Source: a virus. From it: DNA of 31,409 nt. Below the pieces are notes generated by a model, which had not been told where the DNA came from, did not search any database, and worked only from the letters and a program-made list of their open reading frames with translations. The translations under genes and the position numbers were made by a program. Below are positions 3,394 through 29,573 of the stretch, in pieces. Where the stretch lies: the IMG/VR virus record IMGVR_UViG_3300010885_069197, positions 1 through 31,409 of that record; one strand, 5' to 3'. Numbering within the stretch: position 1 is the first letter of the stretch; each line of letters opens with the position of its first letter.

Positions 3394-3408
3394 GTGTAAA
3401 AAATATAT
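3394..3408 (+). promoter_or_regulatory. GTGTAA-type motif, candidate late promoter
   Basis: GTGTAAAAAATATAT runs directly into the ATG at 3409. It lies in the 23-base gap after the LamG pair and matches motifs before six or seven other genes here. No TTGACA-like -35 is seen upstream. Confidence 0.45.
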
Positions 3409-4323
3409 ATGTCTAATATCGTAATATATCCAACTTCAGGAATTTTGGAGTTTAATACAGGAGTGGCAGGCTCATCAACTCTTGACAACTCTCTTTCTGG
3501 TGCATCTAGATTTACCTTTAATAGCGGCGAAACAAATATTACGAGTTATGCTACCGGAAATTTAAATCGCTTAACAATTGATGGCGCACAAGGAAGATTA
3601 TTTTTGATAGATGATTTATTATCTGGTAATCTTTTTAGCGTAAATACAATTGCTGGATTACCAGTCATTCAAGCAAACTCTGATTATACGATTATTATGG
3701 GTCAGTATAATCAAAATAATTTAGTTATTACAGGGGGTAGTATTGGAATTGGCGGCTTACCAACTACAGGAATTCAAAAATTATATGTATCTGGCAATGT
3801 ATATGTTTCTGGAAATATATATTTGAGTGGCAATTCTGTAATGACTGGGAGTAGTTCAAGTTTTATTACTACTGGACAAACTGGTTCCTTTTATACGACT
3901 TCAAATCCTAGTGGATATATTACAAGTTCAAACGTTGTTTATCAAACAGGAATTCAAACAATTTCTGGAGTAAAAACATTTAATGATAATATTGCAGCAA
4001 ATTATGTTACATTATCTACTGGAGCAAATGCAATTGTTTCATTTAGCTTTCAAACTGGTGAATATTATTTAACTATCTCTTCCTCAATAACTAATGTTAC
4101 TGGATATACTTTTACTGGTACAAATGCCCCAAGTTCTCCACAAATATTATCTAGCTCAGTATTTATTTATAATACAGGATATACAGGATATTTAACCTTC
4201 CCAACTGGGTGGACATTTATGGGCAGTCAGCCTTCAACATTAGCTTCTGGTAAGTCGGCTTTATTAACAGTTAAAGCTTATGGCGGTGGCGCAACAGTTG
4301 CGGGATATAGCGTCCAATATTAA
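3409..4323 (+). CDS. Short tail-fibre-like protein
   Basis: A 304-residue protein rich in Gly, Ser, Thr and Asn with no charged core. The middle contains LYVSGNVYVSGNIYLSGNSV, a beta-repeat of the Y-V-S-G-N type, then FITTGQTGSFYTTSNPSGYI, the same element found in the first and last fibre genes. VVYQTGIQTISGVKTFNDN is the hinge-like sequence seen in many phage fibres. The C-terminal 110 residues look like a small beta-sandwich tip. A candidate promoter motif abuts its start, so it probably heads a transcript with the LamG gene that follows. The fibre role is inferred from composition and shared repeats. Confidence 0.75.
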   Translation: MSNIVIYPTSGILEFNTGVAGSSTLDNSLSGASRFTFNSGETNITSYATGNLNRLTIDGAQGRLFLIDDLLSGNLFSVNTIAGLPVIQANSDYTIIMGQYNQNNLVITGGSIGIGGLPTTGIQKLYVSGNVYVSGNIYLSGNSVMTGSSSSFITTGQTGSFYTTSNPSGYITSSNVVYQTGIQTISGVKTFNDNIAANYVTLSTGANAIVSFSFQTGEYYLTISSSITNVTGYTFTGTNAPSSPQILSSSVFIYNTGYTGYLTFPTGWTFMGSQPSTLASGKSALLTVKAYGGGATVAGYSVQY

Positions 4324-4326
4324 TTT

Positions 4327-5754
4327 ATGAAAGGTTTTTCATTTGATCAAGTAGAGTTAGCAAATTCTGTAGATGAATCTGCCATTATTACAAATGGATT
4401 ATCTTTCTTTTTTGACGCCAGTAATAGTAAAAGTTTTTTTAAAAGTCCCACTGTCATATCAGATTTAAGTGCTAATAGAAATAACTTAATACCTATTATT
4501 GGTACAATAGGAGCTCCAGGTTTTTATCAAGAGAATCCTTCTAAAAGCTCAACATTTTCATGTATTAATGCTGCTACTCAAGGTACTGCTGTTCAATATT
4601 ATAAAGGAGCAAATACAGCTTTACAAAATGCTTCTTCAATAACTATTTGTTTTTGGGCTAATTCTACTGCGGCTGGAAATGGAGGAGTTAATGTGGTAGC
4701 TTCTTTAGGCACAACAAGTGCTTTTGTTTTACAAGTGGCTATTTATCAAAATGGAGTTAATACAGGATTAAATTTTAAAAATAATACAATAAATCAATAT
4801 TCTACAAATCAATCAACTGTTAATGGTTGGTTTTTTTGGTCAATAACATATAATTCTGGAAATTTGAGTTTTTATAAAAATGGAGTTTTAATAAATACGG
4901 TTACTGGATTAGCCGCCTTAACCACTTCCACAATAACTACTTTATGTATTGGTTCTCAATTTGGAAGTTCTACTACATGTTTTCTAGGACATATTGGAGA
5001 TGTAATAATTTATAATAGAGCATTATCCGCAGCAGAACTTCTTAAAAATTATAATGTTACAAAAAATAAATTTTCAAGGACTTCTCCTTTAGATAATTCA
5101 TCTTTAGCTCAAGGACTTTTTGCTTATTATACAATGGATGCATCCAATACTAGTTCGGCGGCAGATTCTGTAGCTTCTAATAATTTGACTTTTACTGGAG
5201 ATACTGGAGGTTTTTCAGGGCCAATAGACTCAATAATAAAAAAAGGAGCCCAATTATGGGAGGTTCAAAATTTCTTAAGTTTAGGATATACTTCAAATTT
5301 TATTACTCCTTCTGGAACAACATGGTCAATTTCTTTATGGAGCAATCATAATAATTATGATATAGGTATAAATGAAACAATTATTGGAGTTTCAAATCTT
5401 TTTGTTATGTCTGCAAATGGGAGCTCGACTTATGGAATAAATTTATTTGATGGCACAGGTAATACACAAATTATAACTGGCACATCAAACTTAAATCTTA
5501 GTTTATGGTATCATTTAGTATTAGTTTATAATGCTGGTTCAATTACAATATATGTTAATGGTGTATCTTATGCTACGGCAACTTCAACTTTAACTTCTGT
5601 TTCTTCGCAAACATTTAATGTTAATACTGGAACATCTGGCAGTGGAGGAACCGATGGCAATCAAATTGTAGATGAAATTGGTATTTGGAACAGAGCTTTA
5701 TCACAAACAGAAGCACTAAAACTTTATAATAATGGAGTAGGAAGAGCATATTAA
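4327..5754 (+). CDS. Double LamG-domain protein
   Basis: A 475-residue protein with two LamG-like domains. Domain 1 (about residues 20-245) runs from IITNGLSFFFDASNS to IYNRALSAAELLKNYN. Domain 2 (about 260-475) runs from GLFAYYTMDAS to IWNRALSQTEALKLYNNG. Each has a central strand with a WYHLVLVYN or WFFWSITYN sequence followed by Y-V/K-N-G-V, typical of the family. The two domains are distant from each other, so the fusion is old or came from separate sources. It starts three bases after the upstream stop with no SD. Likely a virion lectin; the receptor is unknown. Confidence 0.82.
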   Translation: MKGFSFDQVELANSVDESAIITNGLSFFFDASNSKSFFKSPTVISDLSANRNNLIPIIGTIGAPGFYQENPSKSSTFSCINAATQGTAVQYYKGANTALQNASSITICFWANSTAAGNGGVNVVASLGTTSAFVLQVAIYQNGVNTGLNFKNNTINQYSTNQSTVNGWFFWSITYNSGNLSFYKNGVLINTVTGLAALTTSTITTLCIGSQFGSSTTCFLGHIGDVIIYNRALSAAELLKNYNVTKNKFSRTSPLDNSSLAQGLFAYYTMDASNTSSAADSVASNNLTFTGDTGGFSGPIDSIIKKGAQLWEVQNFLSLGYTSNFITPSGTTWSISLWSNHNNYDIGINETIIGVSNLFVMSANGSSTYGINLFDGTGNTQIITGTSNLNLSLWYHLVLVYNAGSITIYVNGVSYATATSTLTSVSSQTFNVNTGTSGSGGTDGNQIVDEIGIWNRALSQTEALKLYNNGVGRAY

Positions 5755-5758
5755 TTTT

Positions 5759-6241
5759 ATGGCAATATCAAAAACAAATTCAATAACAACGGCGGCAATA
5801 TTTGACACTTGGTGGATTAGAAGCTTAAAGTCTTTTTCTCCAACGTTTATTCAATTAATGTTTGCCCCATCTAATCGAGAATATTTATTGGTATCAGAGA
5901 CAAAATCTTTAAATTTAAACATTTCTGAGTTAATGATAAATGATTCTATTTTTGCAGAAATAATGAGCTCTTTTTATACTGAAGCTCAAAGACAGTATTC
6001 ATTACAAAATAATAATCCTATATTCACTAATTTTTCAGTTGAAATTTTTACTGTAGCATCTATTAGTCCCACAAATCCTACTTGTATTAATTTTAGATTA
6101 TTAATTGATGAAAATTTGGTTGATTTTAACATTCCAGATATATTTAAATTAGCTATGTCAGATTCAACTTTTGCAGGAATTTTAGATAATTTTATAAATG
6201 AAATGGGAAGACAAGGAAAATTAGCTGGAATTATAGATTAA
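5759..6241 (+). CDS. Unknown protein with an internal duplication
   Basis: A 160-residue protein I do not recognise. Residues 54-79 (ISELMINDSIFAEIM, then EAQRQ) and 124-152 (IPDIFKLAMSDSTFAGILD, then EMGRQ) look like two copies of one helical unit separated by a beta-like stretch. It starts four bases after the LamG gene in the same direction and is the last gene before phoH, so it may be a virion or assembly factor. No signal peptide or membrane segment is evident. The coding call rests on position, length and composition. Confidence 0.7.
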   Translation: MAISKTNSITTAAIFDTWWIRSLKSFSPTFIQLMFAPSNREYLLVSETKSLNLNISELMINDSIFAEIMSSFYTEAQRQYSLQNNNPIFTNFSVEIFTVASISPTNPTCINFRLLIDENLVDFNIPDIFKLAMSDSTFAGILDNFINEMGRQGKLAGIID

Positions 6242-6257
6242 AATATAAAATAAAAAT

Positions 6258-6983
6258 ATGATAAAAAAAGACAATATTAAAAAAGATACATCTCCTTTAA
6301 TTCATCAAAGAGATAAAATTAAAAACTATTTGACAATTAAGGAATTAAATTGGTCTGAAAAGCAAAAAGAGTTTATTAAATTGGCTCTTGATAAAAAAAC
6401 GAAAGTTATTTTTATAACTGGCCCTGCTGGTAGCTCCAAATCAATTTTAGCTGTATATTCTGCTTTGAAGCTTCTTAATGAAAAAAGAATTTCAGATATT
6501 ATTTATATAAGATCTGCTGTAGAAAGTTCTGAAAAAGGACTTGGTTATTTGCCAGGATCTCTTGATGAAAAAATGCATTTTTATAATCTTCCATTTCTTG
6601 AAAAATTGGATGAGCTTCTTCCTAAAAACGAAATTCAAATTCTTCAAAAAGATGAAAGAGTCAAAATGTTTCCAGTTAATTATGCCCGTGGATTAAATTG
6701 GAATGCAAAATGTGTAATTATGGATGAAGCGCAAAATTCTTCTCATAAAGAAATTGTTACTATTTTAACTCGTTTAGGAGAATTTAGTAAATGTTTTATT
6801 CTTGCAGATCCTATGCAAACAGATCTTTTTAAAAATCAAGCAGGTTCGTTTGAAAGATTATCTATATTTCTTGATGATGACGAAAGCAAAGAGCAAGGTA
6901 TTTTTGCTTTTGCTTTTAGCGATGAAGATGTTAAAAGATCTGCTCTTGTTAAATATTTAACTAAAAAGTTAAAAAAACTTTGA
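6258..6983 (+). CDS. phoH: PhoH-like P-loop ATPase
   Basis: A 241-residue protein of the PhoH family, common in marine and other environmental phages. It has a P-loop GPAGSSKS (residues 55-62), RSAVESSEKGLGYLPGSLDE after it, Walker B CVIMDEAQN (D156, E157) and a sensor-like ILADPMQTD (181-189), all in the PhoH order. The P-loop is unusual: Ser replaces the Gly that normally precedes Lys. Phage PhoH proteins are thought to be RNA-related or stress-linked ATPases, and their role in infection is unsettled. Its end overlaps the 3' end of the convergent minus-strand gene by 15 bases. Family assignment is confident, function is not. Confidence 0.9.
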   Translation: MIKKDNIKKDTSPLIHQRDKIKNYLTIKELNWSEKQKEFIKLALDKKTKVIFITGPAGSSKSILAVYSALKLLNEKRISDIIYIRSAVESSEKGLGYLPGSLDEKMHFYNLPFLEKLDELLPKNEIQILQKDERVKMFPVNYARGLNWNAKCVIMDEAQNSSHKEIVTILTRLGEFSKCFILADPMQTDLFKNQAGSFERLSIFLDDDESKEQGIFAFAFSDEDVKRSALVKYLTKKLKKL

Positions 6984-7415
6984 ACTAAACTTTTGTAGAT
7001 TATAAAATTTAAACTTACCTTCACGGGAAAAAGATATTTTTTCAATTTTATTTTCTAATTGTTTTTCAATTAATTGTTTAATATCAGTTTTTTGACGATC
7101 AAAAGTCGCAAATATTATAAATATGGTATTGCCATCATCATCAGATGGCTTATCATATTTTTTATATAATTCACTAAGACCATCTTGTAAATTAAATATT
7201 TTATAAAATATTAAACAATCTTGGTCAAAATAAACATTACCATTAAATTCTTTATATAGTTTTATTAAAGTTTCTAATGATTTATTTCTAATAGTTAAAA
7301 AACTCTTTCTTATTATAAATTCGCTATCAGGATGATCTCTAATTAATAGTTCTTGGCATCTTTTAAATATATTAATTTTTTCATCTTGAGATAAGGATTG
7401 ATATACACTATTCAT
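6969..7415 (-). CDS. Unknown protein, only minus-strand gene
   Basis: A 148-residue protein with a balanced, charged composition and clear amphipathic helices (QSLSQDEKINIFKRCQELLI near the start, LETLIKLYKEF, and IKQLIEKQLENKI near the end). It fills a stretch with no credible forward gene. It converges on phoH with a 15-base overlap at the stops and diverges from the zinc-ribbon gene across 52 bases. I do not recognise the family. Its lone orientation suggests separate expression, perhaps early, or a late acquisition. Overlapping convergent transcripts could affect phoH. Coding status is likely; function is unknown. Confidence 0.7.
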   Translation of the reverse strand: MNSVYQSLSQDEKINIFKRCQELLIRDHPDSEFIIRKSFLTIRNKSLETLIKLYKEFNGNVYFDQDCLIFYKIFNLQDGLSELYKKYDKPSDDDGNTIFIIFATFDRQKTDIKQLIEKQLENKIEKISFSREGKFKFYNLQKFSSKFF

Positions 7416-7445
7416 CTGTTATTTATTTTAATAGTTAAGAGTATA

Positions 7446-7460
7446 TTGTATAATAAATTA
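7446..7460 (+). promoter_or_regulatory. TTGTATAATAAATTA, candidate promoter of packaging operon
   Basis: This sits in the divergent gap (7416-7467) before the zinc-ribbon gene. It contains TATAAT preceded by TG, a good -10-like element and a looser match to the GTGTAA-type motif. Placed about 14 bases from the ATG, it would drive the five-gene terminase operon. Confidence 0.4.
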
Positions 7461-7467
7461 TATTAAT

Positions 7468-7893
7468 ATGCAATACTGTCATAATTGTGGGAAAAAAATG
7501 CCGCAAAGTTCGCTAAAATTTTGCCCATTTTGCGGAACTGATTTGGGAAATTTATTATCCAAAGCCCCTGTTCAACAACAGGCCGCTGCTCCTCAAAAGG
7601 CTAGGGCAAATTCTTTTGCCCCTTTTTCAAATCAAGGTGAGGATGATGACGATTCTTATATTGATCGCATAGAACGATTACAAATTAATATTTCTGAATT
7701 GGATGTTGAAATTGGTAAGCCCTATTTTAATAAAGAAACAATTGGTGGTTTAATGGCTCAAGGTCCAACTAATGAAGAAAAAAGATTTAATCCTATTGCA
7801 GATCCTAATCAAGTTATAGAAAATTTTAAAAAAGAAGGCTCTGCAATTAGACCCAAAGTAAATAGTAGACAAAATATTCAAAATGAAGAGTAA
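7468..7893 (+). CDS. Small zinc-ribbon protein
   Basis: A 141-residue protein. The N-terminus has a zinc ribbon with C4-x2-C7 and C19-x2-C22 (YCHNCGKKM and FCPFCGTDL). A disordered Ala/Gln/Pro linker (about 32-60) and an acidic stretch EDDDDSYIDRIERL follow. The rest is polar with no recognised domain. Zinc ribbons of this type often serve as nucleic-acid or protein contact modules. It overlaps the sigma-like gene by 11 bases and heads a tight five-gene run ending at terL, so a role in late transcription or packaging is plausible. That role is inference from context. Confidence 0.82.
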   Translation: MQYCHNCGKKMPQSSLKFCPFCGTDLGNLLSKAPVQQQAAAPQKARANSFAPFSNQGEDDDDSYIDRIERLQINISELDVEIGKPYFNKETIGGLMAQGPTNEEKRFNPIADPNQVIENFKKEGSAIRPKVNSRQNIQNEE

Positions 7894-8569
7894 TCAAAAA
7901 ATATCTTTTGAAGATTGCTACGATGTAATTAGCCGAGAAATTAACAAAAAGAAATTTAAATGGACTCTTAATTCATTAAGTTGGTTATCATGGGAAGATG
8001 TCGCGCAAATTATATTAATTCATATTAACGATAAATGGGCACAATATGATACTTCAAAACCTCTTCAGCCTTGGTTAAGTGCTATAATATCAAATCAAAT
8101 AAAAAACATTATAAGAAATAATTATAGTAATTATACTCGTCCATGTTTAAAATGTAAAGCTTCTGAAGCTAGTGATGGATGTAAAATTTATCAAACACAA
8201 TGTTCAGATTGTCCTCTTTATGCAGAATGGGAAAAACGTAGAAAGCCAGCATATAATGTAAAAATTCCAGTCTCTATTGAAAATCATGTAAATGAAATTC
8301 AAGAGATTTCTGAAGAAGGGTATGGACTAGAAAGGAATATACAAGAAATTCATAGTAAAATGAAAGAAATTTTAAAACCTATTGAATATAAAATCTATGA
8401 AGGAATCTTTATTAATAATGAGCCTGAAGAACATTTAGCCAAAAGACTTGGTTATATTTCTAATGAAAAAAATAGAACTCCTGGTTATAAACAAATTAAA
8501 AATATTAGAAAAGCTATAATTATAAAAGCTAAGAAATGTATTGCAGAAGAACAAGTGGATATATATTAA
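7883..8569 (+). CDS. Putative phage sigma-70-like factor with Cys cluster
   Basis: A 228-residue protein. Residues 36-79 (SWEDVAQIILIHI, then YDTSKPLQPWLSAIISNQ and IKNIIRNNY) follow the sigma region 2 pattern: E-D-x-x-Q helix, then f-D-x-x-x-p-W-L-x-x-I-x-x-N and R. Residues 157-217 look like region 4, a helix-turn-helix with EHLAKRLGYIS and YKQIKNIRKAI. Between them is an unusual cysteine cluster, C88-x2-C91, C100, C107-x2-C110, likely to bind zinc. Family knowledge: many phages encode a small divergent sigma for late genes, such as T4 gp55. Inference: this one may direct transcription from the GTGTAA motif. It follows the zinc-ribbon gene with an 11-base overlap and sits upstream of terL. 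Confidence 0.68.
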   Translation: MKSNQKISFEDCYDVISREINKKKFKWTLNSLSWLSWEDVAQIILIHINDKWAQYDTSKPLQPWLSAIISNQIKNIIRNNYSNYTRPCLKCKASEASDGCKIYQTQCSDCPLYAEWEKRRKPAYNVKIPVSIENHVNEIQEISEEGYGLERNIQEIHSKMKEILKPIEYKIYEGIFINNEPEEHLAKRLGYISNEKNRTPGYKQIKNIRKAIIIKAKKCIAEEQVDIY

Positions 8570-8570
8570 A

Positions 8571-9665: not shown

Positions 9666-10593
9666 ATGTAAAATCTGTAAAGCTTTTTTTGAAGATGATA
9701 AAAGCCTTCATCATCATCTAAAAGCTCATAAACTTCATGTCTTTGAATATTATCAAACGACAAGCCCGCGATATGATTTGTATGATAAAAATTTAATTCT
9801 TTTTAAAAATAAAAAACAATATTTTGAAACAGATTTCAATTCTGCAAAAAATATGAGATTATGGTTAGATCAGCAGCTTCCTGAAAAAAGAATAGATTAT
9901 TTAAAAAATATCCTTTTAAAAAGAAGAGACGAAAAAAGCTTAATTTATACTTTAAGTCAAGTTGAGCTTAGATCTTTAAAAATTCCTGGACTTAAATATT
10001 ATAATAAAGTTTTCGAAAATTATTATACTTTTTGTGAATCTTTAGGATTTAAAAATAAATATTCTTTTCCTAAAAAAGTGGCTATTAAAAATATTTTTGA
10101 AGATTCTGCTGCAAAAATTTATATTGATACTCGGGAACAATTGCCTCTTGAATTTGATTGCCCTTCGGAAGTTAAAACTTTAAAATTTGGAGATTATGCT
10201 TTTAGTTTATCAGAAAAAGCTGGCAGATGTTATGTAGAAAGAAAATCTCTTAACGATTTTATTGGAACTCTTTCTGGCGGTTTTGAAAGATTTGAAAATG
10301 AAATAATTCGCGCAAAAGAAGCTGGAGCTTATTTAGTTATATTAATAGAAGATGATTTAAATAATGCTTTAAGATTTAATACTCTTGAGCATTTATATAA
10401 AAAAGGAATGAAAGTCACTCCTGAATATATATTTCATAATGTAAGACAGCTTATTCAAAAATATGATCATATTCAGTTTCTTTTTGTAAAAAATCGACAA
10501 GAAGCTTCTCAAATGATAAAAAAACTTTTTTCTAATCAAAATCAAGTTAAAAAAATGGATTTGCAATTCCATTATGATATGGGGGTTTTATAA
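9658..10593 (+). CDS. C2H2 zinc finger + ERCC4/XPF-type nuclease
   Basis: A 311-residue protein. The N-terminus is a textbook C2H2 finger, C4-x2-C7-x12-H20-x3-H24. A helical linker follows. Residues about 153-290 form an ERCC4-type nuclease: IDTREQLPLEF (D157), FGDYAF (G178, D179), VERKSLNDFIGTLS (E194, R195, K196, D200) and the helix ERFENEIIRA, then a LVILIEDD strand. All expected metal-binding acidic residues are present. It overlaps the previous gene by 8 bases and shares one base with the terL start. AGAAGAGG six bases before its ATG is one of the few SD-like sites. Such nucleases cut branched or flap DNA. The position suggests trimming or resolving DNA for packaging, which is inference. 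Confidence 0.87.
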   Translation: MVECKICKAFFEDDKSLHHHLKAHKLHVFEYYQTTSPRYDLYDKNLILFKNKKQYFETDFNSAKNMRLWLDQQLPEKRIDYLKNILLKRRDEKSLIYTLSQVELRSLKIPGLKYYNKVFENYYTFCESLGFKNKYSFPKKVAIKNIFEDSAAKIYIDTREQLPLEFDCPSEVKTLKFGDYAFSLSEKAGRCYVERKSLNDFIGTLSGGFERFENEIIRAKEAGAYLVILIEDDLNNALRFNTLEHLYKKGMKVTPEYIFHNVRQLIQKYDHIQFLFVKNRQEASQMIKKLFSNQNQVKKMDLQFHYDMGVL

Positions 10594-12413
10594 TGTGGTA
10601 TTCTTCTGATAAATATACTAAAAATGTTGTTGATCTTAATGCTCAATTCATGGATTTAAAAGGAGATCTTGAAGACAAAGAAGCTAAGATTTCACTTGCA
10701 AAATTTTTAAGAGCAAACCTTGGATTTACTACAGAATTATTATCAGGAGTAAAACTTGCGCCATATCAAGAAATAGTTTTAAAAGGAATGTTAAATAGAA
10801 ATTTTTCTATGAATGTTTGGGGGCGTGGTTGTGCTAAAACATTCGTGGCAAGTATTTTCTGTTTTTTACAATGTATTTTTGAACCCAATTCCAAAATTCT
10901 TATAGCTGGCCCAACTTTTCGTACTGCGCGATTTATATTTAATAATTTAGAAAAAATAGTTGATTCTAAAGGAGGAGAATTACTTCAGCAGGCATTTGGA
11001 GTAAAAGCTAAAAGAAATGATCAATTTGAATGGCAAATTAATGGTGGATCTATTACAGCTATTCCGCTTAATGGAGAAAAGATTCGCGGTTTCCGTGCAA
11101 ATATTCTAGTACTTGATGAGTATCTTTTGCTTCCAGAGGATATTATTAAAACTGTTTTGATGCCATTTCTTGTAGCTCCTCAAAATATGAAAGAGCGTCT
11201 TGAGGTAAGAGAAATTGAAGATAAACTTATTAAAGACGGATTAATGAAACATGAAGATCGTTATGTTTTCGAAAATAATTCTAAAATGATAGCATTGTCC
11301 TCTGCTTCATTTACTTTTGAAAATCTTTATAAAACCTATCAAGAATGGAGCGAAAAAATTTATAATAAAGAGCGAGGAGATGCTACTTATTTTATAAGTC
11401 AATTAGGTTATGAAGCTCTTCCTTTAGAGATGATAGATAAAACTATTATTGAAGAAGCTCAAAGTGGGGGGTTATCTAACTCTTCTTTTTTAAGAGAATA
11501 TTGCGCTCAATTTACTGATGGATCAGATTCTTATTTTAGTGGTAAAAAAATGCATGATTGTACTGTTCCAGATGGACAAGAACCCACTTTAAGGTTGCAG
11601 GGCAGTCCTGGGAAAAAATATTTAATTGCAATTGATCCTAGCTTTAGTAATTCTCCAAGTTCAGATTACTTTGCAATTGCAGTAATAGAATTTGATTCTC
11701 AAGAATCAGAATGTACTTTAGTACATAATTATGCAGTTCCTGGCGCAGACTTAAAAGATCATATTGTTTATTTTTCTTATTTAGTGGATGCGTTTAAACC
11801 TGAGATGATTATTATTGATAATGCAGGTTTTCAATTTATTGATTCCTGCAATGAGTCTGAATTGTTTAGAAATAAATCATTATCATTTTTTGATTTTGAT
11901 AGTGAATTAGAAGGAGATAATTATCAGGCTGTTTTAAGAAAAGCCAGAAATGATTACAACAGAGAGAAAGGCTCTATCTGTTTTAAACAAAATTTTACAA
12001 GTGATTTTCTACGTAAAGCTAATGAGCATTTGCAGGCGAGCATTGATTATAAAAAGGTCTGGTTTGCTTCAAGAATTTCTCCTAATAGTGAAGCTTATGA
12101 TAGAATAACATCTTCTTCTTTTAAAACTCCAGTAAAACAAGGTGAAACAATTATTGATATAATTGATGAGCAGGATGATTTAATTTATCAAGTTAAAAAA
12201 CAATGTGCTTTGATAGAAGTTAAATCTACAATTAAAGGAAATCAATCTTTTGATTTGCCTCAGCATCTTAAACGAAATACTTCTGCTAATAGGGCAAGAA
12301 AAGATAATTATACAACCTTAATGCTTGGAAATTGGCTATTCCGATGCTATAAAGATATCAAGAATGCCCCTATTGAGCAGAGAAATGAGTCTTTTACCCC
12401 TTTTATAATATAA
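10593..12413 (+). CDS. terL: Terminase large subunit
   Basis: A 606-residue packaging motor. The ATPase half has an adenine-motif-like APYQEIVLKG (56-65), P-loop GRGCAKT (77-83), Walker B NILVLDE (D175, E176) and coupling motif ALSSAS (234-239). The nuclease half has KYLIAIDPS (D348) and MIIIDNAG (D409), two of the expected acidic metal ligands; the third is probably in the acidic stretch near the C-terminus. The P-loop has Ala where Gly normally precedes Lys. The start is coupled to the nuclease gene (TAATG). Family knowledge: it docks on the portal, translocates DNA and cuts the concatemer. Identification is secure; headful versus cohesive-end cutting cannot be told. Confidence 0.95.
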   Translation: MWYSSDKYTKNVVDLNAQFMDLKGDLEDKEAKISLAKFLRANLGFTTELLSGVKLAPYQEIVLKGMLNRNFSMNVWGRGCAKTFVASIFCFLQCIFEPNSKILIAGPTFRTARFIFNNLEKIVDSKGGELLQQAFGVKAKRNDQFEWQINGGSITAIPLNGEKIRGFRANILVLDEYLLLPEDIIKTVLMPFLVAPQNMKERLEVREIEDKLIKDGLMKHEDRYVFENNSKMIALSSASFTFENLYKTYQEWSEKIYNKERGDATYFISQLGYEALPLEMIDKTIIEEAQSGGLSNSSFLREYCAQFTDGSDSYFSGKKMHDCTVPDGQEPTLRLQGSPGKKYLIAIDPSFSNSPSSDYFAIAVIEFDSQESECTLVHNYAVPGADLKDHIVYFSYLVDAFKPEMIIIDNAGFQFIDSCNESELFRNKSLSFFDFDSELEGDNYQAVLRKARNDYNREKGSICFKQNFTSDFLRKANEHLQASIDYKKVWFASRISPNSEAYDRITSSSFKTPVKQGETIIDIIDEQDDLIYQVKKQCALIEVKSTIKGNQSFDLPQHLKRNTSANRARKDNYTTLMLGNWLFRCYKDIKNAPIEQRNESFTPFII

Positions 12414-12416
12414 TAT

Positions 12417-12430
12417 GCGTAATATATTTA
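12417..12430 (+). promoter_or_regulatory. GCGTAATATATTTA, candidate late promoter
   Basis: GCGTAATATATTTA lies in the 35-base gap between terL and the collagen-like fibre. It matches the GTGTAATATAT motif with one change. Its distance to the ATG (32 bases) is the longest in the set, so support is weaker. Confidence 0.35.
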
Positions 12431-12448
12431 TAATGATTGGCTTAAGGT

Positions 12449-14998
12449 ATGGCTACTAGCTTAATTAAAGTAAGGCAAATTGATCAAACAGAATTATCTG
12501 GATATGTTCAACAATTTGTTGTTGGATCTCCCACTTCTTCTGGTAGTGCTTTTAATACCAACGTTATTCCTGTTGGCTCTGGAGTTTATAATCTAGGTAA
12601 TAGTGGAAATTATTGGAAAAATGTTTATACTAATCAAATAAATTTACCTTCTGGATCTGGAGTATATTTTGGAAATCAATTTTTTACAACTAGTGGAAAT
12701 TCTTTATTAATTAGTGGTCCAGGTGGTACTACTGCAATATCTTCCACTACAAATTATGTAACTTATGTTGGACCAACAGGCCCAGTTGGAGCTACTGGAG
12801 CCAGTGGAGCAAAAATTACAGGAGTTACTGGAAATTCTCCTTATGTAACTTTTCTTTTAAATGACGGTTCTCAAACAAATCAAATTTTATTACCTTCTGG
12901 AGCAACTGGAGCTCAAGGATTAGTTGGTCCATCTGGAGTTTCTGTAACTGGAGCTTTAACAGGAATAAATTCTACAGGAACTTATTTTAGATTTTTATTT
13001 TCTAATACTGGAACTGGTGGATATATATATGTTCCTAGTGGAGTTCAAGGAGCTGATGGTCAAGTAGGCGGCGCGACTTTAACTTTTTTAAATTTAACAG
13101 GTTTATTTTCAGGACAAGCAACTCCAACTATAACAGTTGATGGAATTTCTTCTTCTTATATAAATGGTGGTCCAGATATTAATCTTATAAAAGGATTTAG
13201 TTATAAATTTAATTATGAGGGAATTAATACTTTAAGATATACTGACGCTACTTATACTAATAAATCAACTAATTTTATTATATATGGGAAAAATGATACA
13301 GGTTTATATTCTCAATATAATTATCTTACTGGCCCGTTAAATGGCGCAGGAGCAGCTTTAACTGGAATTCAAAATTCTGGAGCATTGCTTTTTACAATTT
13401 TCACAAATTCTGCTCAGACCGGAAGATATATTTGGAAAGAATCTTCCTCTGCGGCAATCAATACAATTTCAGGGCAGGTAGTTTCTCCAACTGGAATTTT
13501 TGAAAATTATTCTTATTTATACGATACAATAACTGTTAATTCTACTGGTTATAATTTTTATTGGAAAACTCAGGGTACATTAAAATTTTCTAATAACATT
13601 TCTGATACTTATAAATATGGATTTGCATTATATAATTCAGATTCTTTAGTATATCCGCCAGTTCTTCAAAGTCCTCAGGCTTATTATGTTTTGGGTACTT
13701 TAAATTTATCTTATGCCCCTCTTGCAGGCCCAATTGGTCCACAGGGTAATCAAGGAATTCCTGGGCCCGCAGGCCCATCTGGATTAGCAGGATCAGTTGG
13801 AGCCACAGGCGTGGGAGTTAGTGGAGTTAATACAATAATTACTGCCGGAATATTAAGCGGTTTTCAATTAGTGTTAACAAATGGTCAATCAGTTGGGCCT
13901 TATATGATTCCAACTGGAGGGCCTCAAGGAGCTACAGGTTCGGCAGGATCAACTGGTCCAACAGGACCCACAGGAATATCAGTAACTGGAGTTAATCAAA
14001 TTTCTTCTAATTCGATTAATTTTTTATTATCTAATAATTCTTCTACTAGTGCAGTTACATTGCCAGCAGGGCCTCAAGGCCAAGCTGATACTTATTATTC
14101 TTATTTTGACCCAGTAAATTTAAGAATTTCAGGCCAAAGCTCTTATCCAACTGGATTTCAAGTAAGTACAAATGGAACAACTTGGACAAATGCAACAGGA
14201 GCGGGGAGATTACTTACTACAGGGCAATATGTTAAAATTTATGGAGCCCCAACTCTTCCTTTTGCAAATAGAAGCTATTCATCTTCTCAAAATTTAATTC
14301 TTTCTAGAAGATCTGTTACTGGAGAATTTTTTGGGGCACAAGTTACTAATTTTGATGGTATAAATTTAACTTTTTATGTAAATCCTCAAATAGGATTTTG
14401 GACTACTAATGGATTAAATATTTTAACTCAAGAAGGCAGTACCATTGATGTAAATTTAGGAGCTATAACTACAGTTGGACCTACAGGGCTTTCTGTCACA
14501 GGAGTAATTACTTATCAAGGAGATCCAGGCAATGGAATTGCTACTTCAAATACTGGCATTCAATTTCAATATTCTAATTCAACTACATCTCCAATAGTAG
14601 CTTTGCCACAAGGACCAAGAGGTTATTCTGGTGCAGCTCAAATATTTAAAGTTACTGGATTAAATGTCAATAGTAGTGTTGATATAACAGGTAATTTTAA
14701 TAAAAGTGATTTAATTGAATATAATTTGACAGGATCATCTACTGCTAATTTTTATATTGATTCTGGAACAGTAGTTACAGGGCAGACTTGCATGGTTTTA
14801 ATTAGAAATAGTGGCTATTCGCCAAGTACATTTAATTTTATGCCTGCTAATCAATTTTATTTTGTAAATAGTATCATGCCGGCTCCTCCAATTACTCTTT
14901 ATTCTTTTAATATTTATACATTTATAAGGTCAATGAACTATAATAGTCATCCAGTGTACTATTGTACATATGCAGCAAATTATCCAGCATTAAACTAA
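12449..14998 (+). CDS. Collagen-like tail fibre
   Basis: An 849-residue protein. Short Gly-X-Y collagen-like runs occur near residues 108-121, 151-163, 198-208, 425-455, 490-508 and 725-735, for example VGPTGPVGATGASG and GIPGPAGPSGLAG. Between them is a recurring beta unit of about 40 residues that begins with a form of V/I-S-V-T-G-V and ends L-P-x-G, often followed by PQG (about 121-153, 164-205, 455-494, 510-545, 682-727). The C-terminal 120 residues look like a tip domain. Collagen-like phage fibres form trimers on the virion surface. It sits between terL and portal, an unusual place for a fibre. SD support is only AAGG one base from ATG. Confidence 0.83.
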   Translation: MATSLIKVRQIDQTELSGYVQQFVVGSPTSSGSAFNTNVIPVGSGVYNLGNSGNYWKNVYTNQINLPSGSGVYFGNQFFTTSGNSLLISGPGGTTAISSTTNYVTYVGPTGPVGATGASGAKITGVTGNSPYVTFLLNDGSQTNQILLPSGATGAQGLVGPSGVSVTGALTGINSTGTYFRFLFSNTGTGGYIYVPSGVQGADGQVGGATLTFLNLTGLFSGQATPTITVDGISSSYINGGPDINLIKGFSYKFNYEGINTLRYTDATYTNKSTNFIIYGKNDTGLYSQYNYLTGPLNGAGAALTGIQNSGALLFTIFTNSAQTGRYIWKESSSAAINTISGQVVSPTGIFENYSYLYDTITVNSTGYNFYWKTQGTLKFSNNISDTYKYGFALYNSDSLVYPPVLQSPQAYYVLGTLNLSYAPLAGPIGPQGNQGIPGPAGPSGLAGSVGATGVGVSGVNTIITAGILSGFQLVLTNGQSVGPYMIPTGGPQGATGSAGSTGPTGPTGISVTGVNQISSNSINFLLSNNSSTSAVTLPAGPQGQADTYYSYFDPVNLRISGQSSYPTGFQVSTNGTTWTNATGAGRLLTTGQYVKIYGAPTLPFANRSYSSSQNLILSRRSVTGEFFGAQVTNFDGINLTFYVNPQIGFWTTNGLNILTQEGSTIDVNLGAITTVGPTGLSVTGVITYQGDPGNGIATSNTGIQFQYSNSTTSPIVALPQGPRGYSGAAQIFKVTGLNVNSSVDITGNFNKSDLIEYNLTGSSTANFYIDSGTVVTGQTCMVLIRNSGYSPSTFNFMPANQFYFVNSIMPAPPITLYSFNIYTFIRSMNYNSHPVYYCTYAANYPALN

Positions 14999-15001
14999 TA
15001 T

Positions 15002-17613: not shown

Positions 17614-17628
17614 GTGTAAAATAACTAT
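17614..17628 (+). promoter_or_regulatory. GTGTAA-type motif, candidate late promoter
   Basis: GTGTAAAATAACTAT leads directly into ATG at 17629, with the same 15-base distance as the site before 3409. It lies in a 30-base gap. No -35-like hexamer is seen upstream. Confidence 0.45.
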
Positions 17629-19197: not shown

Positions 19198-19201
19198 TTT
19201 T

Positions 19202-19798: not shown

Positions 19799-19802
19799 TT
19801 AA

Positions 19803-21719
19803 ATGTCATACTATAATAATGAACCATCTGGTATATCTTTTTCAGGAGTAATTTTAGATCCTCTTGCTTCTGGATCAATAGATACTGGGCGCTTTATTAA
19901 TGGTTATGGTCAAGTTTATGGCATTTATTGGAATACAGGGGCAAATGTTTCTTACGGTTTAGCTAAACATACTTTAACTCAAAATTCTGCCCCAACTATA
20001 AGTGGAGATATTTATTGGACTGCTCCATCACCTTTCGGAAATAAAATTCAACTAGGATTTAGTGGTATAAAATATCTTGATCCACAATCTAATAGAACTT
20101 TTGTTGACAATAGTGGAATTTTAGGAATTGGCAATGCAATGATTGCTGATTTTGAAATTAAACCAATCAAAAGTGGATTAGAAGATATTGTTGAAACTTC
20201 AATTGCTCCTTCTTTATTTTATTTAAATGGTGTAAAATTGGGATCTATAAATGAAGGAATTTTCATTACTAATCAGCGATTTAATAGAACTGGGAATTTT
20301 TATTCAGGCAGTTCTCCAAATGGTCAACAAACTCTTTCTGGATTATTAAATTCTTTAGCAGTTGTTAATCCTTTGATTACTGGCTATGTAGCATATGCAA
20401 GTGGCGAAGGTATGCAAATGTTTGATGGTGGAGGCAATTTTAAAAGCTACATGAATGGAGGGATATTAAAAACTCCAATTGAAAAAAGCGATTTATATTT
20501 AAAACCTTTTACTGTATATATTAAACCTGATAAAGTTTATTATGGAACAGGAGATTTTATTGATTGTTGGAGAGTAACAGATTTTTTTAGCAACAATCAA
20601 GAAAGAATGACTGATTTGAAAAGAAGATTAGAGGTTTCAATTTCAAATCAAAGTAAATATGTAACGTTTTTTACTGGATATGATTCTGGTTCAAATACTG
20701 GACTGTATCTTACTTATATAAAAGGAAATAAATCATTTTATTGCCCTGCTGGTACTTCTTTAAATTATCCATCTTCATGTACTACTTCAGTTGCATCTGG
20801 AATATTTACTAACGATAATGGCTTAACTGGAGTATGTTATAGATGTAAAAATTGTGATCCTTGCCCATCTGGAACATTTTCAACCGCTGGATACAGTAGC
20901 AATGGAGATGTAAATCAAACTATTGCCAGTATTTATTGTAGTAATCCTGGATATTCAGTATTTTCTTATGTAAATGACTGTGGGCAAACTGGCAATTGTC
21001 TTTCATGTACAGATTCTCGTTGTGAAAATAAAGGATTATATACCGATTGGCTTTCTGCCGCAAATTCATGTTCTCCTTTGGGCAAAGATATAGGATCCGC
21101 TCCTAACGCTTATCAAAATCAAGTTTTTGGTATGCCATATAAAGCAGATGATACTCAATGGAATTGGTGGAGAGATGGTAATACTCCTATAGCTTATTAT
21201 TGTTGGGAATGTTCTAAATGTGATAGTTGTAAAAACTATTTAGCCTATAATATTCCTTTTAATCCTTCTACTTGTAGCGCTGGTTATGCTTATATAGACG
21301 TATATTCTAATATATATAATGTATGCGGTCCTCTTTCATGCGGTTGGTGCAATGATAATGGATCTTTTACTTGGCCTCCTACGGGAATTCCTCAGCCTCC
21401 TTATTCTTGTGTTGATGCATCTACTAATATTGATACTCCAGTATTTACATTTTGTGGAACTCCAGCTGGTTTAAGATCTCAAGCTGATTATTATACGGCG
21501 TTTAGTATACATGCCTCGACTGATTATTATTATAACACGTTACAAGTTACTCAAGATCAGTTTTATGCACTAAAATTAGATAAAATGATAGCAAATTGTT
21601 TTGCAGATAAATATATTTGCGTAAAAGCAGTGGATGCTGGTTGTGGAGGTTCTGATTCAATATTTATGGATATTTATTCATGGGCCACTCTTTATGATTA
21701 TAATTTAAATTGTGTATAA
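19803..21719 (+). CDS. Family B' protein with cysteine-rich domain
   Basis: A 638-residue protein. Residues 1-90 match module N of the preceding gene (GYGQVYGIYWNTGAN, IYWTAPSPFGNKI). Residues about 90-312 are a beta-rich region I do not recognise. Residues about 313-638 hold 26 of the 27 cysteines in clusters such as CYRCKNCDPCPSGTF, CGQTGNCLSC, YYCWECSKCDSC and CGPLSCGWC. The C-P-x-G-T spacing recalls eukaryotic TNFR/EGF-like Cys modules, but no named family fits. Such cysteine density is rare in virion proteins folded in the cytoplasm; disulphides after release or metal binding are possible. Module C is missing here but present as the next gene. Confidence 0.72.
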   Translation: MSYYNNEPSGISFSGVILDPLASGSIDTGRFINGYGQVYGIYWNTGANVSYGLAKHTLTQNSAPTISGDIYWTAPSPFGNKIQLGFSGIKYLDPQSNRTFVDNSGILGIGNAMIADFEIKPIKSGLEDIVETSIAPSLFYLNGVKLGSINEGIFITNQRFNRTGNFYSGSSPNGQQTLSGLLNSLAVVNPLITGYVAYASGEGMQMFDGGGNFKSYMNGGILKTPIEKSDLYLKPFTVYIKPDKVYYGTGDFIDCWRVTDFFSNNQERMTDLKRRLEVSISNQSKYVTFFTGYDSGSNTGLYLTYIKGNKSFYCPAGTSLNYPSSCTTSVASGIFTNDNGLTGVCYRCKNCDPCPSGTFSTAGYSSNGDVNQTIASIYCSNPGYSVFSYVNDCGQTGNCLSCTDSRCENKGLYTDWLSAANSCSPLGKDIGSAPNAYQNQVFGMPYKADDTQWNWWRDGNTPIAYYCWECSKCDSCKNYLAYNIPFNPSTCSAGYAYIDVYSNIYNVCGPLSCGWCNDNGSFTWPPTGIPQPPYSCVDASTNIDTPVFTFCGTPAGLRSQADYYTAFSIHASTDYYYNTLQVTQDQFYALKLDKMIANCFADKYICVKAVDAGCGGSDSIFMDIYSWATLYDYNLNCV

Positions 21720-21724
21720 TTTAT
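21712..21724 (+). promoter_or_regulatory. GTGTATAATTTAT motif before 95-residue gene
   Basis: GTGTATAATTTAT abuts ATG 21725 and overlaps the last codons and stop of the upstream gene. It contains a perfect TATAAT. It is the only member of the set that lies mostly in coding sequence, so the match could be partly chance. Confidence 0.3.
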
Positions 21725-22012: not shown

Positions 22013-22015
22013 TAT

Positions 22016-23494: not shown

Positions 23495-23507
23495 GTGTAA
23501 TATATAT
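23495..23507 (+). promoter_or_regulatory. GTGTAATATATAT motif, candidate late promoter of head module
   Basis: GTGTAATATATAT starts right after the family A' stop and lies 24 bases from ATG 23519. The same core occurs at 25745 and 29561, and like those it precedes a functional block, here the head-assembly genes. Confidence 0.5.
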
Positions 23508-23518
23508 TGATTTTATAT

Positions 23519-24789: not shown

Positions 24790-25750
24790 GCCTATAGAGC
24801 TTGAAATTGTAACTTCTTCAGCTTATAATAAAACTTTTAAAGCTGAAAAAGAAGGTGATTGCTATGCTTATGTAAAACATAAAGGTGGCAAAACTTATAA
24901 AGCTACATTTTCTTGCTCAAAAAGTGATGAAATTTCTCAAGATTGGAATGGCGAATTGATGTGGGATCAAGTTGACTTGCTTCGCTCCAATCCAGCATTA
25001 TTAGGATTTAAAGAAATTGATGAAGCAGAACAAATATATGTTGATGGATTAGGTGGGCCTGATCCAGAAGAAAGAATGAGAAGAGGAGAAGATGATAGTA
25101 AAGATAGTCGTTTTCAAAACATGCAAATGGCTAGTTTAGATCCTAAAAGTCAACTTTCTAATTGGAATACTTTTGATAAATGGAAAGAGCAATATTGGAA
25201 ACGCGAATATCCAGCTTATTCTCCAAAAACAGATACTTCTAAAAAATATCCACCTACTGAAAGCCCTGTTGGAACTCCTGGAAAATGGAAGCCTATGGTT
25301 TGGAGGCAAGAATTTCCAGATTATGCTCCAAAAACTACAGAATCTGTTCCTAAAAATGTAGATCAAGAGTTTTCCAAAAAAAATAAAGAACAATCTATTC
25401 AGAGTCCCAAAGAGCCAGATGGTAGAATGAAAGTTCCTATGGCAAGCTCTACGCCAGTTCATTATGAGTTTGATTTAGAAAAATATGCTGAAAAAGACTT
25501 TTATAAACAACAGTATCCTGGATTAGGCCCAAATTCTAAAACTGCCAAAGCTGATGAAGTTACTCATTACAATGGTCTTTATCAAGATGAGTATCAAGGG
25601 ACTCCTCAACAGCCTATTAATATTCCTAAAAAATTTAAATATAAGATTGGCGAAAAAAAGACATATGATAATCAATGGAAACTATTAACTTCTGCTCCAA
25701 TGCAGTTATATAAAGAGTTTTTGGTCGCAGAAGACCTTAAAAAGGTGTAA
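24779..25750 (+). CDS. Unknown head-region protein with YWKREYP-type repeats
   Basis: A 323-residue protein starting at GTG 24779 (GTG 24773 is the alternative). No ATG occurs before residue 61, yet the N-terminal unit GDCYAYVKHKGGKTYKATFS is clearly structured, so a GTG start is needed. Residues about 100-280 are polar and probably disordered. They carry four related short motifs: QYWKREYPAYSPKT (138-151), MVWRQEFPDYAPKT (173-186), DFYKQQYPGLGPNSKT (240-253... in part) and LYQDEYQGTP (267-276). Such spaced motifs suggest repeated binding to one partner, for example scaffold or capsid. I do not recognise the family. It overlaps the upstream gene by 11 bases, and its stop lies within a promoter-like motif. 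Confidence 0.7.
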   Translation: MKIKPIELEIVTSSAYNKTFKAEKEGDCYAYVKHKGGKTYKATFSCSKSDEISQDWNGELMWDQVDLLRSNPALLGFKEIDEAEQIYVDGLGGPDPEERMRRGEDDSKDSRFQNMQMASLDPKSQLSNWNTFDKWKEQYWKREYPAYSPKTDTSKKYPPTESPVGTPGKWKPMVWRQEFPDYAPKTTESVPKNVDQEFSKKNKEQSIQSPKEPDGRMKVPMASSTPVHYEFDLEKYAEKDFYKQQYPGLGPNSKTAKADEVTHYNGLYQDEYQGTPQQPINIPKKFKYKIGEKKTYDNQWKLLTSAPMQLYKEFLVAEDLKKV

Positions 25751-25757
25751 TATATAT
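25745..25757 (+). promoter_or_regulatory. GTGTAATATATAT motif, candidate late promoter
   Basis: GTGTAATATATAT has the same 13 bases as the site at 23495. It includes the stop codon of the upstream gene and lies 19 bases before ATG 25764 of the protease-scaffold gene. Confidence 0.5.
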
Positions 25758-25763
25758 AAGATT

Positions 25764-27296
25764 ATGGATTTAGAATTTCCTTTTTACTCAAGTTTTAGTT
25801 CAATGATAAAGCCTCTTGTCTCAGAAGAAAAAGACAAGTATTTAGCAATGGCCAGCCTCATTGACGTAGGAAATTTTATTCCTAAGATTGATACAAAAAG
25901 TAACATTGATTTGTTGCCTGTTGCTTTTAATGCTTGTGTAATTAATCGCGCCAATAAAAATGGCGATGTTATTGATACAGATTCAGCAATTGCTGTTTAT
26001 AAGAACTTTATCAATAAGCCAATCAATATTGAGCATAATCGCCAAAAAATTATAGGAACAATTTTATCTGCAGGTTTTAGTGAATTTGGATCAGATCTTC
26101 CCCTTACTGAAAATCAAGTAAAAGATTTAAAAACTCCTTTTAATATTACTCTTGGTGGAGTTCTTTGGAAAATCGTTAACCCCGAAATCACAGATCAAAT
26201 TGAAGATTCTAATGATGAATCTAGTGATTATTATCAATCAATTTCTGCCAGTTGGGAACTTGGTTTTAGTGAATATCAATTGGTCTGGACTGATAATGAT
26301 AGCAAAAATTTAGAAGATTCAAAAATTGCTGGAGAAATTGAAGCCTCTACATTAAAAGATTATTTAAAAGCTTTTGGCGGAACTGGCAAAACAAAAGATG
26401 GTCGTTCTGTTTATCGTAAAGTGGTAGGAACTGTTGTTCCTCTTGGCATTGGATTGACTGAAAATCCTGCCGCCGAAGTCATTGGAATTGCCGTAAATAA
26501 AGAAAAAACTCCTGATATTAAATTAGATGATCAAAAAGCTGATATTCAAGAACAAAAAATTTCACAATCTAGTGATTCAAATGTAAATAAAAATAGCAAT
26601 AAAATTATGAAAATTAATTCTTTGGAAGATATTAATGATAAAAATTGGAAAGAACTTTCCGCCTCTGCCGTTACGCTCTTCATTGCTGAAGAGATAAAAA
26701 AAGCAAGTGAGTCTTACGTTACTGAAAAAAATAAAACAGAAACTATGTTCAAGGCCACAGAAGCTGCTTCTAAACAATTGCAAGATGATTATGCTGGTTT
26801 GAAGACTGCTCTTGAAGGAGTTCAAGGTGAGCTTTCTAAACTTCAAGAAGAAAAAGCTGCCAGAGAACAAACTGACACTTTTAATTCGCGCATGAACGAG
26901 GTGTGCAGTACTTACGCCCTTAATGATGAAATGGCCAAAGTTGTTGCTGAACAATTAAAAACTTGTAAATGTGATGAGGATTATGCCACTTATAAAACTA
27001 ATATGGCTGTATTCTTGAAACCTTATGAAAGAAAGGCCAATGCTGCTGCATCCCCAAGTGATGAAAAAAATGTTGCTGGGCCCACAAAACAAGCTCCCGA
27101 CACTAAAATGAAAGACCCAAAAGATGAGCAAGCTTATGCTTCAACTCAAGTGGTTGATCAAGCTCTTGACAACGCTGCTCAAGAAAAAATTTCCCTCCCG
27201 AACTCTGTTGAGACAAAGAAGCCTAGTTTGATTGAACAATATAGTCAAGCTTTTTCTTTGGAGGAAGGATTTACAGTTAACAAAAATAGGAGATAA
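25764..27296 (+). CDS. Prohead protease fused to scaffold
   Basis: A 510-residue protein. Residues 1-250 resemble a prohead serine protease: FNACVINRANKNGDVID, then NKPINIEHNRQKIIGTI (H91 as candidate catalytic His) and YYQSISASWELGF (Ser in 159-163, S161 the best candidate). Residues about 285-510 are highly charged, with a coiled-coil segment (about 315-370, LQDDYAGLKTALEGVQGELS) and a Pro/Asp/Lys-rich stretch, as in scaffolds. Family knowledge: the scaffold shapes the prohead and the protease then removes it. An in-frame ATG at 26607 (M282), just before the scaffold half, could give a scaffold-only product, as lambda C/Nu3 does. No SD precedes it, but most genes here lack one. Confidence 0.83.
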   Translation: MDLEFPFYSSFSSMIKPLVSEEKDKYLAMASLIDVGNFIPKIDTKSNIDLLPVAFNACVINRANKNGDVIDTDSAIAVYKNFINKPINIEHNRQKIIGTILSAGFSEFGSDLPLTENQVKDLKTPFNITLGGVLWKIVNPEITDQIEDSNDESSDYYQSISASWELGFSEYQLVWTDNDSKNLEDSKIAGEIEASTLKDYLKAFGGTGKTKDGRSVYRKVVGTVVPLGIGLTENPAAEVIGIAVNKEKTPDIKLDDQKADIQEQKISQSSDSNVNKNSNKIMKINSLEDINDKNWKELSASAVTLFIAEEIKKASESYVTEKNKTETMFKATEAASKQLQDDYAGLKTALEGVQGELSKLQEEKAAREQTDTFNSRMNEVCSTYALNDEMAKVVAEQLKTCKCDEDYATYKTNMAVFLKPYERKANAAASPSDEKNVAGPTKQAPDTKMKDPKDEQAYASTQVVDQALDNAAQEKISLPNSVETKKPSLIEQYSQAFSLEEGFTVNKNRR

Positions 27297-27307
27297 AATA
27301 AAAAAAT

Positions 27308-27919: not shown

Positions 27920-27940
27920 TATTAAAGGATTTATAAAAAT

Positions 27941-29116: not shown

Positions 29117-29137
29117 TCTAAGATTAATCTAAACTTT

Positions 29138-29172
29138 AGAGGGGAGCGAGAAATCGCTCCTCTCTTTTTTTT
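29138..29172 (+). terminator. Rho-independent terminator after capsid gene
   Basis: A 12-bp stem (AGAGGGGAGCGA with TCGCTCCTCTCT, one G-U pair) closes on a GAAA tetraloop at 29150-29153. Eight T residues follow at 29165-29172. It is the only strong intrinsic terminator I see in the window and ends the head-gene transcript. Confidence 0.93.
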
Positions 29173-29204
29173 GTTTTTATATTAAAATTTTTTATAATAT
29201 TTAC

Positions 29205-29558
29205 ATGACTAAGAAAAAAGATATTGAACAGCTTTCTCAAACGAATGCTAAAGTGGAAAAATTTGCTCCCACAACTCTTGACCAAATTTGGGGAGATCGC
29301 GGCTCTGCAAAATATAATACTCTTGATCCTATTGAATATGAAGCAAAACTAAAAGGCATGAATAAAACAGATTTATATTCTCATGCTCGTTCATTGGGAA
29401 TCATGCCAAATGACAATTATGATTTGTTGATTCGTAAATTGCGTCAAGAATTTTTAGCTCATATTAATGCATATCGCCGCCCTAATGTTGTTAATAACGC
29501 AAATGGTGCAAAAAAAGTTTCTACAGAAGTATTAAAGATTCTTTCTGAAGGTCGATAA
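29205..29558 (+). CDS. Small protein with SAP-like helical domain
   Basis: A 117-residue protein, first gene after the capsid terminator. Residues about 44-86 (LKGMNKTDLYSHARSLGIMP, then LLIRKLRQEFLAHI) follow the helix-extended-helix pattern of SAP-like domains: L-x-x-M-x-x-x-D-L-x-x-H-A, G, P and L-x-x-x-L. SAP domains bind DNA in cellular proteins; similar small proteins occur just after capsid genes in several phage groups with unclear roles. The leader (29173-29204) is A/T only, with no SD. A neck or head-completion role is possible by position. Family level is moderate, function uncertain. Confidence 0.72.
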   Translation: MTKKKDIEQLSQTNAKVEKFAPTTLDQIWGDRGSAKYNTLDPIEYEAKLKGMNKTDLYSHARSLGIMPNDNYDLLIRKLRQEFLAHINAYRRPNVVNNANGAKKVSTEVLKILSEGR

Positions 29559-29560
29559 TT

Positions 29561-29573
29561 GTGTAATATATCA
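29561..29573 (+). promoter_or_regulatory. GTGTAATATATCA motif, candidate late promoter
   Basis: GTGTAATATATCA begins two bases after the upstream stop and lies 18 bases before ATG 29579. It has the same 11-base core as the sites at 23495 and 25745. It would restart transcription for the virion genes after the capsid terminator. Confidence 0.5.

Follow-up and report, generated by a model that had tools for sequence, protein, structure and literature searches.

The closest described counterparts of the element considered here are late promoters that phages read with sigma factors of their own. In phiEco32, the sigma factor gp36 recognizes a single element, tAATGTAtA, at middle and late promoters, with no -35 element, and transcription starts 6-8 bp downstream; the late promoters of phage 7-11, which are served by gp47, are bipartite, GTAAtg-(16)-aCTA (PMC8948821). 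The present element, GTGTAAT, recurs in a 31.4 kb virus contig from IMG/VR (record IMGVR_UViG_3300010885_069197, positions 1 to 31,409; hereafter the window), which has 32% G+C, carries nearly every gene on the + strand and includes a block of packaging and structural genes. It had been proposed as a phage late promoter in an initial annotation of the window, and its enrichment, its placement in the structural block and the lack of a -35 element now support that proposal computationally. We consider it very probable that GTGTAAT is a -10-like, -35-independent late promoter of a phage clade, read by a phage sigma factor (most likely the one we term SigA), with transcription starting 8 nt after GTGTAA. 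Its enrichment is specific to strand and position, it sits at operon heads, it is conserved phylogenetically, it has no -35 partner, and it is separate from TTGACA/TATAAT promoters. All results were computed from sequence, and the related genomes are not independent of each other.

By the tests made, the window system would belong to neither the phiEco32 nor the T4 type, and the gp36 promoters of phiEco32 appear to be its closest functional analogue. Both systems have a single -10-like element without a -35 and host sigma70 promoters for early genes. A phage sigma factor acts with the host core polymerase in phiEco32, and would do so here. The predicted start, a pyrimidine-purine (Y/R) step 8 nt after GTGTAA, compares with starts 6-8 bp downstream in phiEco32. 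However, the de novo consensus, GTGTAAT, differs from tAATGTAtA, and SigA, with its sigma4-like domain and its linker of four cysteines, departs from gp36, in which region 4 is said to be missing. For gp36 six promoters have been mapped; the long genomes here have about 20 predicted sites each. The near-leaderless placement found here was not looked for in phiEco32.

T4 late promoters (TATAAATA; gp55, gp33, gp45) likewise lack a -35 element, serve late structural genes and use a phage sigma factor, and as an analogy the comparison drawn in the initial annotation holds. It does not extend to the machinery itself: TATAAATA is enriched only 1.2 and 0.6 fold here (nine genomes and 76 loci, respectively) vs 89 fold in T4, and the gp55 family (phrog_234) has no match in the four long genomes searched (G001, G003, G014 and G015; T4 control E = 2.5e-70), nor is phrog_234 listed among the SigA family matches. 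T4 sites lie 14-28 nt (mostly 24-28) before the ATG in the same test, whereas the peak here is at 8-9. The gp45-type clamp (PF02916) gave no match, and its control was also silent. With phage 7-11 the window system shares a phage sigma factor with region 4, late genes and GTAA within the consensus, but it has one element rather than a bipartite one. SigA also resembles extracytoplasmic function (ECF) sigma factors (sigmaE, SigH, SigL), which have sigma2 and sigma4 domains by fold. ECF promoters carry a -35 element, unlike the sites here, and the four invariant cysteines of the SigA linker are a further difference from ECF factors. No report of GTGTAAT as a phage promoter was found in the open-access literature searched.

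Motif sites in the window

The sites are listed below. Distances (d) are counted from GTGTAA to ATG, base 0 being the first G of GTGTAA, and ranks are those given by a weight matrix trained solely on other genomes, over about 62,800 window positions.

3394 to 3404, + strand: predicted late-promoter site GTGTAAAAAAT; ATG at 3409, d = 9, predicted leader 0-1 nt; rank 6
7448 to 7458, + strand: weak, degenerate site GTATAATAAAT before the Zn-ribbon and sigma genes; rank 31, by itself at background level
12417 to 12427, + strand: predicted late-promoter site GCGTAATATAT, 26 nt before the ATG at 12449, with TAAGG just before that ATG; rank 11
17614 to 17624, + strand: predicted late-promoter site GTGTAAAATAA; ATG at 17629, d = 9; rank 7
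21712 to 21722, + strand: weak site GTGTATAATTT before the ATG at 21725; rank 22, background level
23495 to 23505, + strand: predicted late-promoter site GTGTAATATAT; ATG at 23519, d = 18; rank 2
25745 to 25755, + strand: predicted late-promoter site GTGTAATATAT, which shares bases with the stop codon of the preceding gene; ATG at 25764, d = 13; rank 1
29561 to 29571, + strand: predicted late-promoter site GTGTAATATAT; ATG at 29579, d = 12; rank 3

The five strong sites (3394, 17614, 23495, 25745 and 29561) are those that had been named initially, and with the out-of-sample matrix they rank 1, 2, 3, 6 and 7. The exact 11-base core said to be shared by three of them, GTGTAATATAT, occurs in three copies in the window, each upstream of a gene, and the spacing of 13-32 nt from first G to ATG was also borne out. 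Among the looser sites, 12417 stands: in the relative G001 a perfect AAAAAGTGTAATATA occupies the orthologous place, 25 nt before gene 29841. The sites at 21712 and 7448 (initially placed at 7446) are indistinguishable from background in the window, but the counterparts of the Zn-ribbon and sigma genes in G006, G010, G014 and G015 have perfect GTGTAA sites upstream.

When the 11-mer is matched with up to two mismatches, the window holds 34 matches against 21.4 +/- 4.0 expected, a number that none of 100 shuffles reaches (0/100). The loose count is thus signal mixed with A/T-rich background, moderately above chance, and the initial caution about A/T content was justified at this level of matching. 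The hexamer GTGTAA gives the decisive count: it occurs 13 times in the window, and 5/13 sit 3-35 nt before a same-strand ATG, a zone that makes up 1.6% of positions (binomial p = 1.1e-6). The initial annotation overlooked that GTGTAA is also found within genes (at 2796, 6712, 9409, 20230 and 25936, plus two on the minus strand), so the core alone is insufficient to define a site.

Enrichment and conservation in relatives

The window's terminase large subunit (TerL), used as query, retrieved 449 relatives among viral contigs, the best 80 at 65-76% identity; only four relatives were longer than 130 kb. Terminase matches in cultured phages reached only about 24% identity, the capsid protein has no relatives among cultured phages, and SigA has none there at E <= 1. 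No cultured phage, to judge from these searches, is close to the window phage. When the window sigma factor itself was used to scan IMG/VR, nothing matched, as the short peptide patterns were too specific.

In the first set (80 loci and the window), GTGTAA is present in 181/515 regions of 50 nt upstream of genes. The complementary strand has it in 25, and the expectation from coding sequence is 2.7. The window and eight relatives, taken as a set of nine larger sequences, show a 28-fold enrichment of GTGTAA in the upstream zone (106/273), with the reversed hexamer at 1.7, the complement at 2.2 and other variants at 1.0-3.4 fold. In 76 further loci, unused in motif discovery, the enrichment is 44.5-fold (175/411, in 62/76 loci), with controls at 0-1.7. 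The initial annotation had held that equal frequency inside genes or on the wrong strand would speak against a promoter; per base, the motif is 28- to 44-fold rarer elsewhere, and control hexamers reach 0-3.4 fold.

An unseeded expectation-maximization search returned t.GTGTAATt as its top motif, and the next distinct class was a host-type CTTGaCa. The consensus is about WWWNGTGTAATWW, that is, GTGTAAT with A/T-rich sequence on either side. Once GTGTAA sites had been removed, a search for another phage-specific motif returned nothing beyond host-type TTGAC; this search was not exhaustive, since its random seeds failed to pick up GTGTAA in the full set too. G001 (202,882 bases), with 49% G+C, retains AAAAAGTGTAATATA-like sites, which excludes a compositional artefact. 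The motif is upstream of the ortholog of gene 29579 in 10/10 genomes, of the portal gene in 8 and of PhoH in 6; it precedes the ortholog of gene 25764 in G001, G003 and G004, and the G001 ortholog (35118) of the gene at 17629 has it at the same distance.

Promoter architecture and late use

The initial annotation had seen no -35 element, and none is present in 109 dereplicated sites, where no column upstream of -5 is significant and the one preference to reach threshold is for A/T at -5 to -3. The first profile had also shown a C-rich patch 17-20 nt upstream; it was lost on dereplication and is put down to related loci.

In the long relatives the motif concentrates in the structural block, and TTGACA/TATAAT promoters lie mainly outside it. 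The G001 block (18-70 kb) contains 9/24 motif sites vs 2/39 sigma70-like sites (Fisher p = 0.0017), and the G003 block 19/27 vs 7/37 (Fisher p = 7e-5); as the limits of the blocks were drawn by eye once the map had been seen, both p-values serve as indications only. The motif sites of G014 and G015 are densest near the packaging genes. We infer 'late' from the genes served. As a method control, a 40 kb late region of T4 gave TATAAATA (9/15 upstream, 89-fold) and no GTGTAA upstream. The method thus recovers a late promoter already known and is not the source of the GTGTAA signal.

One relative, close to the window phage, lies in a Flavobacteriales metagenome bin (L124). We do not take this bin to indicate the host, as Bacteroidota-type promoters (TTTG/TAnnTTTG) are not enriched and TTGACA/TATAAT promoters are.

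Start point and leaderless transcripts

A pyrimidine-purine step is the usual signature of a transcription start. Downstream of the motif, such a step is over-represented at bases 13/14, occurring in 40/75 sites with the ATG at least 11 nt away (p = 3e-9 vs other positions) and in 44/92 of a larger set with distances of at least 14. The pooled genomes and G005-G010 give a clear signal, G003 a suggestive one. The commonest distance, d = 8 (45/234), places the A of the ATG at base 14; 30 more sites have d = 9 and only 6 fall below 8. At d = 8 the base before the ATG is a pyrimidine in 44/45 sites vs 366/611 genes without the motif. Shine-Dalgarno-like leaders are found in 0/62 sites at 8-9 nt, where there is no room for one, in 3/25 at 14-17 nt and in 29/43 at 18-40 nt.

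Because the initiator step lies 8 nt after GTGTAA and ATGs cluster there, leaderless late mRNAs are predicted. In the mechanism that we favour, host core RNA polymerase with a phage sigma factor, likeliest SigA, would open DNA at GTGTAAT and begin transcription 8 nt after GTGTAA. Where the ATG is at the start point (roughly one site in three, at d = 8-9), the promoter would probably give a leaderless mRNA or one with a single extra base; where it is farther off, the mRNA would carry a leader, often with a Shine-Dalgarno-like sequence. Candidates for leaderless or one-base-leader mRNAs in the window are the sites at 3394 and 17614 (d = 9), and leaders of about 4, 5 and 10 nt are predicted at 29561, 25745 and 23495.

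Early transcripts may be leaderless as well, as suggested by the sigma70-like sites within 150 nt of a start, of which 36/80 end 4-11 nt before the ATG. Early promoters of the form TTGACA-17-TATTAT stand near an ATG in L087-L097 (G001), L098-L104 (G003) and L205-L221 (G014, G015). Leaderlessness itself is not new, and phage transcripts are often leaderless, as the authors of the AR9 study remarked (PMC5312081). The papers searched describe no clade in which a promoter consensus is tied to the start codon.

Candidate reader of the motif

The genes that bear on the identity of the reader are as follows.

7468 to 7893, + strand, window: gene of a Zn-ribbon protein, immediately preceding the sigma gene
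7883 to 8569, + strand, window: SigA, a divergent phage sigma factor (sigma2, Cys-rich linker, sigma4)
L092, 3468 to 4067, - strand: SigB
L103, 2820 to 3449, + strand: SigB

All 31 SigA homologues match Sigma70_r2 (PF04542; 31/31, best 8.5e-8), and SigA of the window itself scores 23.6 bits, slightly below the 24-bit cut-off. Its AlphaFold model has a mean pLDDT of 73.6 and a pTM of 0.38, the domain arrangement being uncertain. Residues 6-84 superpose on sigma2 of known sigma factors (root-mean-square deviation 2.4 A, Z 8.1) and residues 148-224 on sigma4 (2.8 A, Z 8.3). Foldseek E-values are weak (best 0.03), so the identification is carried by the sequence match; a profile search of solved structures gave nothing but a spurious match. 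Four cysteines in the linker between sigma2 and sigma4 (C88, C91, C100 and C110; CxxC-x8-C-x9-C) are invariant in 31 aligned homologues, and possibly form a zinc site, which would be unusual for a sigma factor. All relatives with 4 kb or more of sequence upstream of TerL encode SigA (72/72). In G014 and G015 the Zn-ribbon and SigA genes are directly under a perfect GTGTAA site, which makes positive feedback likely in these relatives.

Several points weigh against the favoured mechanism. SigA has a sigma4-like domain despite the lack of a -35 at the sites. Many gene blocks are without a good site, including the window's capsid-like protein block, and read-through must be assumed. The Y/R signal comes mainly from the pooled set and falls short of significance in G014/G015 and in G001 by itself; gene starts were mechanical ATG calls; and, by eye, G014 and G015 have no clear early/late partition. 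Finally, a second phage sigma factor, SigB (phrog_351 type), is encoded in G001, G003, G014 and G015 and could be the true reader.

With SigB as reader, the promoter would be the same and SigA would be a product or helper of late transcription. We regard this as unlikely, but SigB has to be taken seriously as a rival. Each of the four long genomes checked encodes it outside the structural block and with no GTGTAA directly upstream, which fits a sigma factor made before the late genes. Where SigA is itself under a GTGTAA site, something must make the first SigA, and the lack of a further phage-specific motif after GTGTAA removal leaves two sigma factors with one visible motif. However, G001 and G003 have an identical motif, and between them identity in region 2.3-2.4 is only 36% for SigB vs 62% for SigA. 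SigA, moreover, was found in all relatives that were tested. MT835476, a distant relative of SigB, shows 0/29 GTGTAA in the upstream zone, which at 27% identity says little. SigA is therefore favoured for its better conserved DNA-binding stretch, a weak argument in that SigA is also better conserved overall, and we consider it the most likely reader, in preference to SigB. G001 also encodes a third, ECF-like sigma factor (L092, 10474 to 11061), possibly taken from a host.

Operon placement and other readings

The strong preference for 8-9 nt before the ATG might also be expected of a translation-initiation element or another mRNA-level signal. This we judge quite improbable, because the motif is present at operon heads and nearly absent inside operons: it is upstream of 3/294 genes with a same-strand gap of at most 4 nt (1%) vs 30/87 with gaps of 12-29 nt (34%). 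Its distance to the homologous start of gene 29579 varies from 6 to 22 nt among genomes; conserved upstream of that gene at varying distance, the motif is not a ribosome-binding site. Most sites 18-40 nt off (29/43) have a separate Shine-Dalgarno-like sequence after them.

It seems equally improbable that the motif serves an RNA polymerase encoded by the phage itself, whether multisubunit or T7-like. A short single element without a -35 would fit such an enzyme as well, but no result points to one, and the beta'-type domain PF04998 is absent in G001 and G003 (the control matched in 14 genomes). The T7-type polymerase domain PF00940 gave no match, its control being also silent.

Chance similarity in an A/T-rich genome, for which only the loose matching (34 vs 21 expected) speaks, is refuted by the replication set, with 28- and 44-fold enrichment, flat controls and retention of the motif in a 49% G+C genome, and is hardly credible.

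Gene context of the window

Other genes of the window, with assignments by weak match where stated, are listed here.

6258, start: PhoH gene
9658, start: ERCC4 nuclease gene
10593 to 12413, + strand: TerL gene
15002, start: portal-like protein gene (weak match)
25764, start: gene that, from its position only, could encode a protease or scaffold
27941, start: capsid-like protein gene (weak match)
2 to 1927, 12449 to 14998 and 30327 to 31409: repetitive fibre-like protein genes

The fibre-like proteins have repeated TGxFVTTxQTG segments and collagen-like GPxG stretches. The products of 1926-2618, 2615-3385 and 4327-5754 resemble tandem related lectin-like proteins. The sole clear minus-strand gene (6969-7415, 148 aa) lies between the PhoH and Zn-ribbon genes.

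Implications

The motif appears to mark the late-gene starts of a large group of uncultured viruses that infect aquatic bacteria. For a clade known only from environmental DNA, with hundreds of contigs found via one protein, this would provide a late-gene switch with a candidate sigma factor and a precise predicted start, and the promoter may flag late operons whenever a new contig from this clade is found. More tentatively, and on balance less likely than not, this may be a widespread uncultured clade with early host-sigma promoters and late phage-sigma promoters built onto the start codon, much leaderless mRNA, and a new sigma family with a metal-binding linker. If this is true, the host ribosome, or one altered by the phage, would have to take leaderless mRNA efficiently. 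The prediction that start point and start codon coincide makes leaderless translation in an abundant environmental phage testable, and may hint at the type of host.

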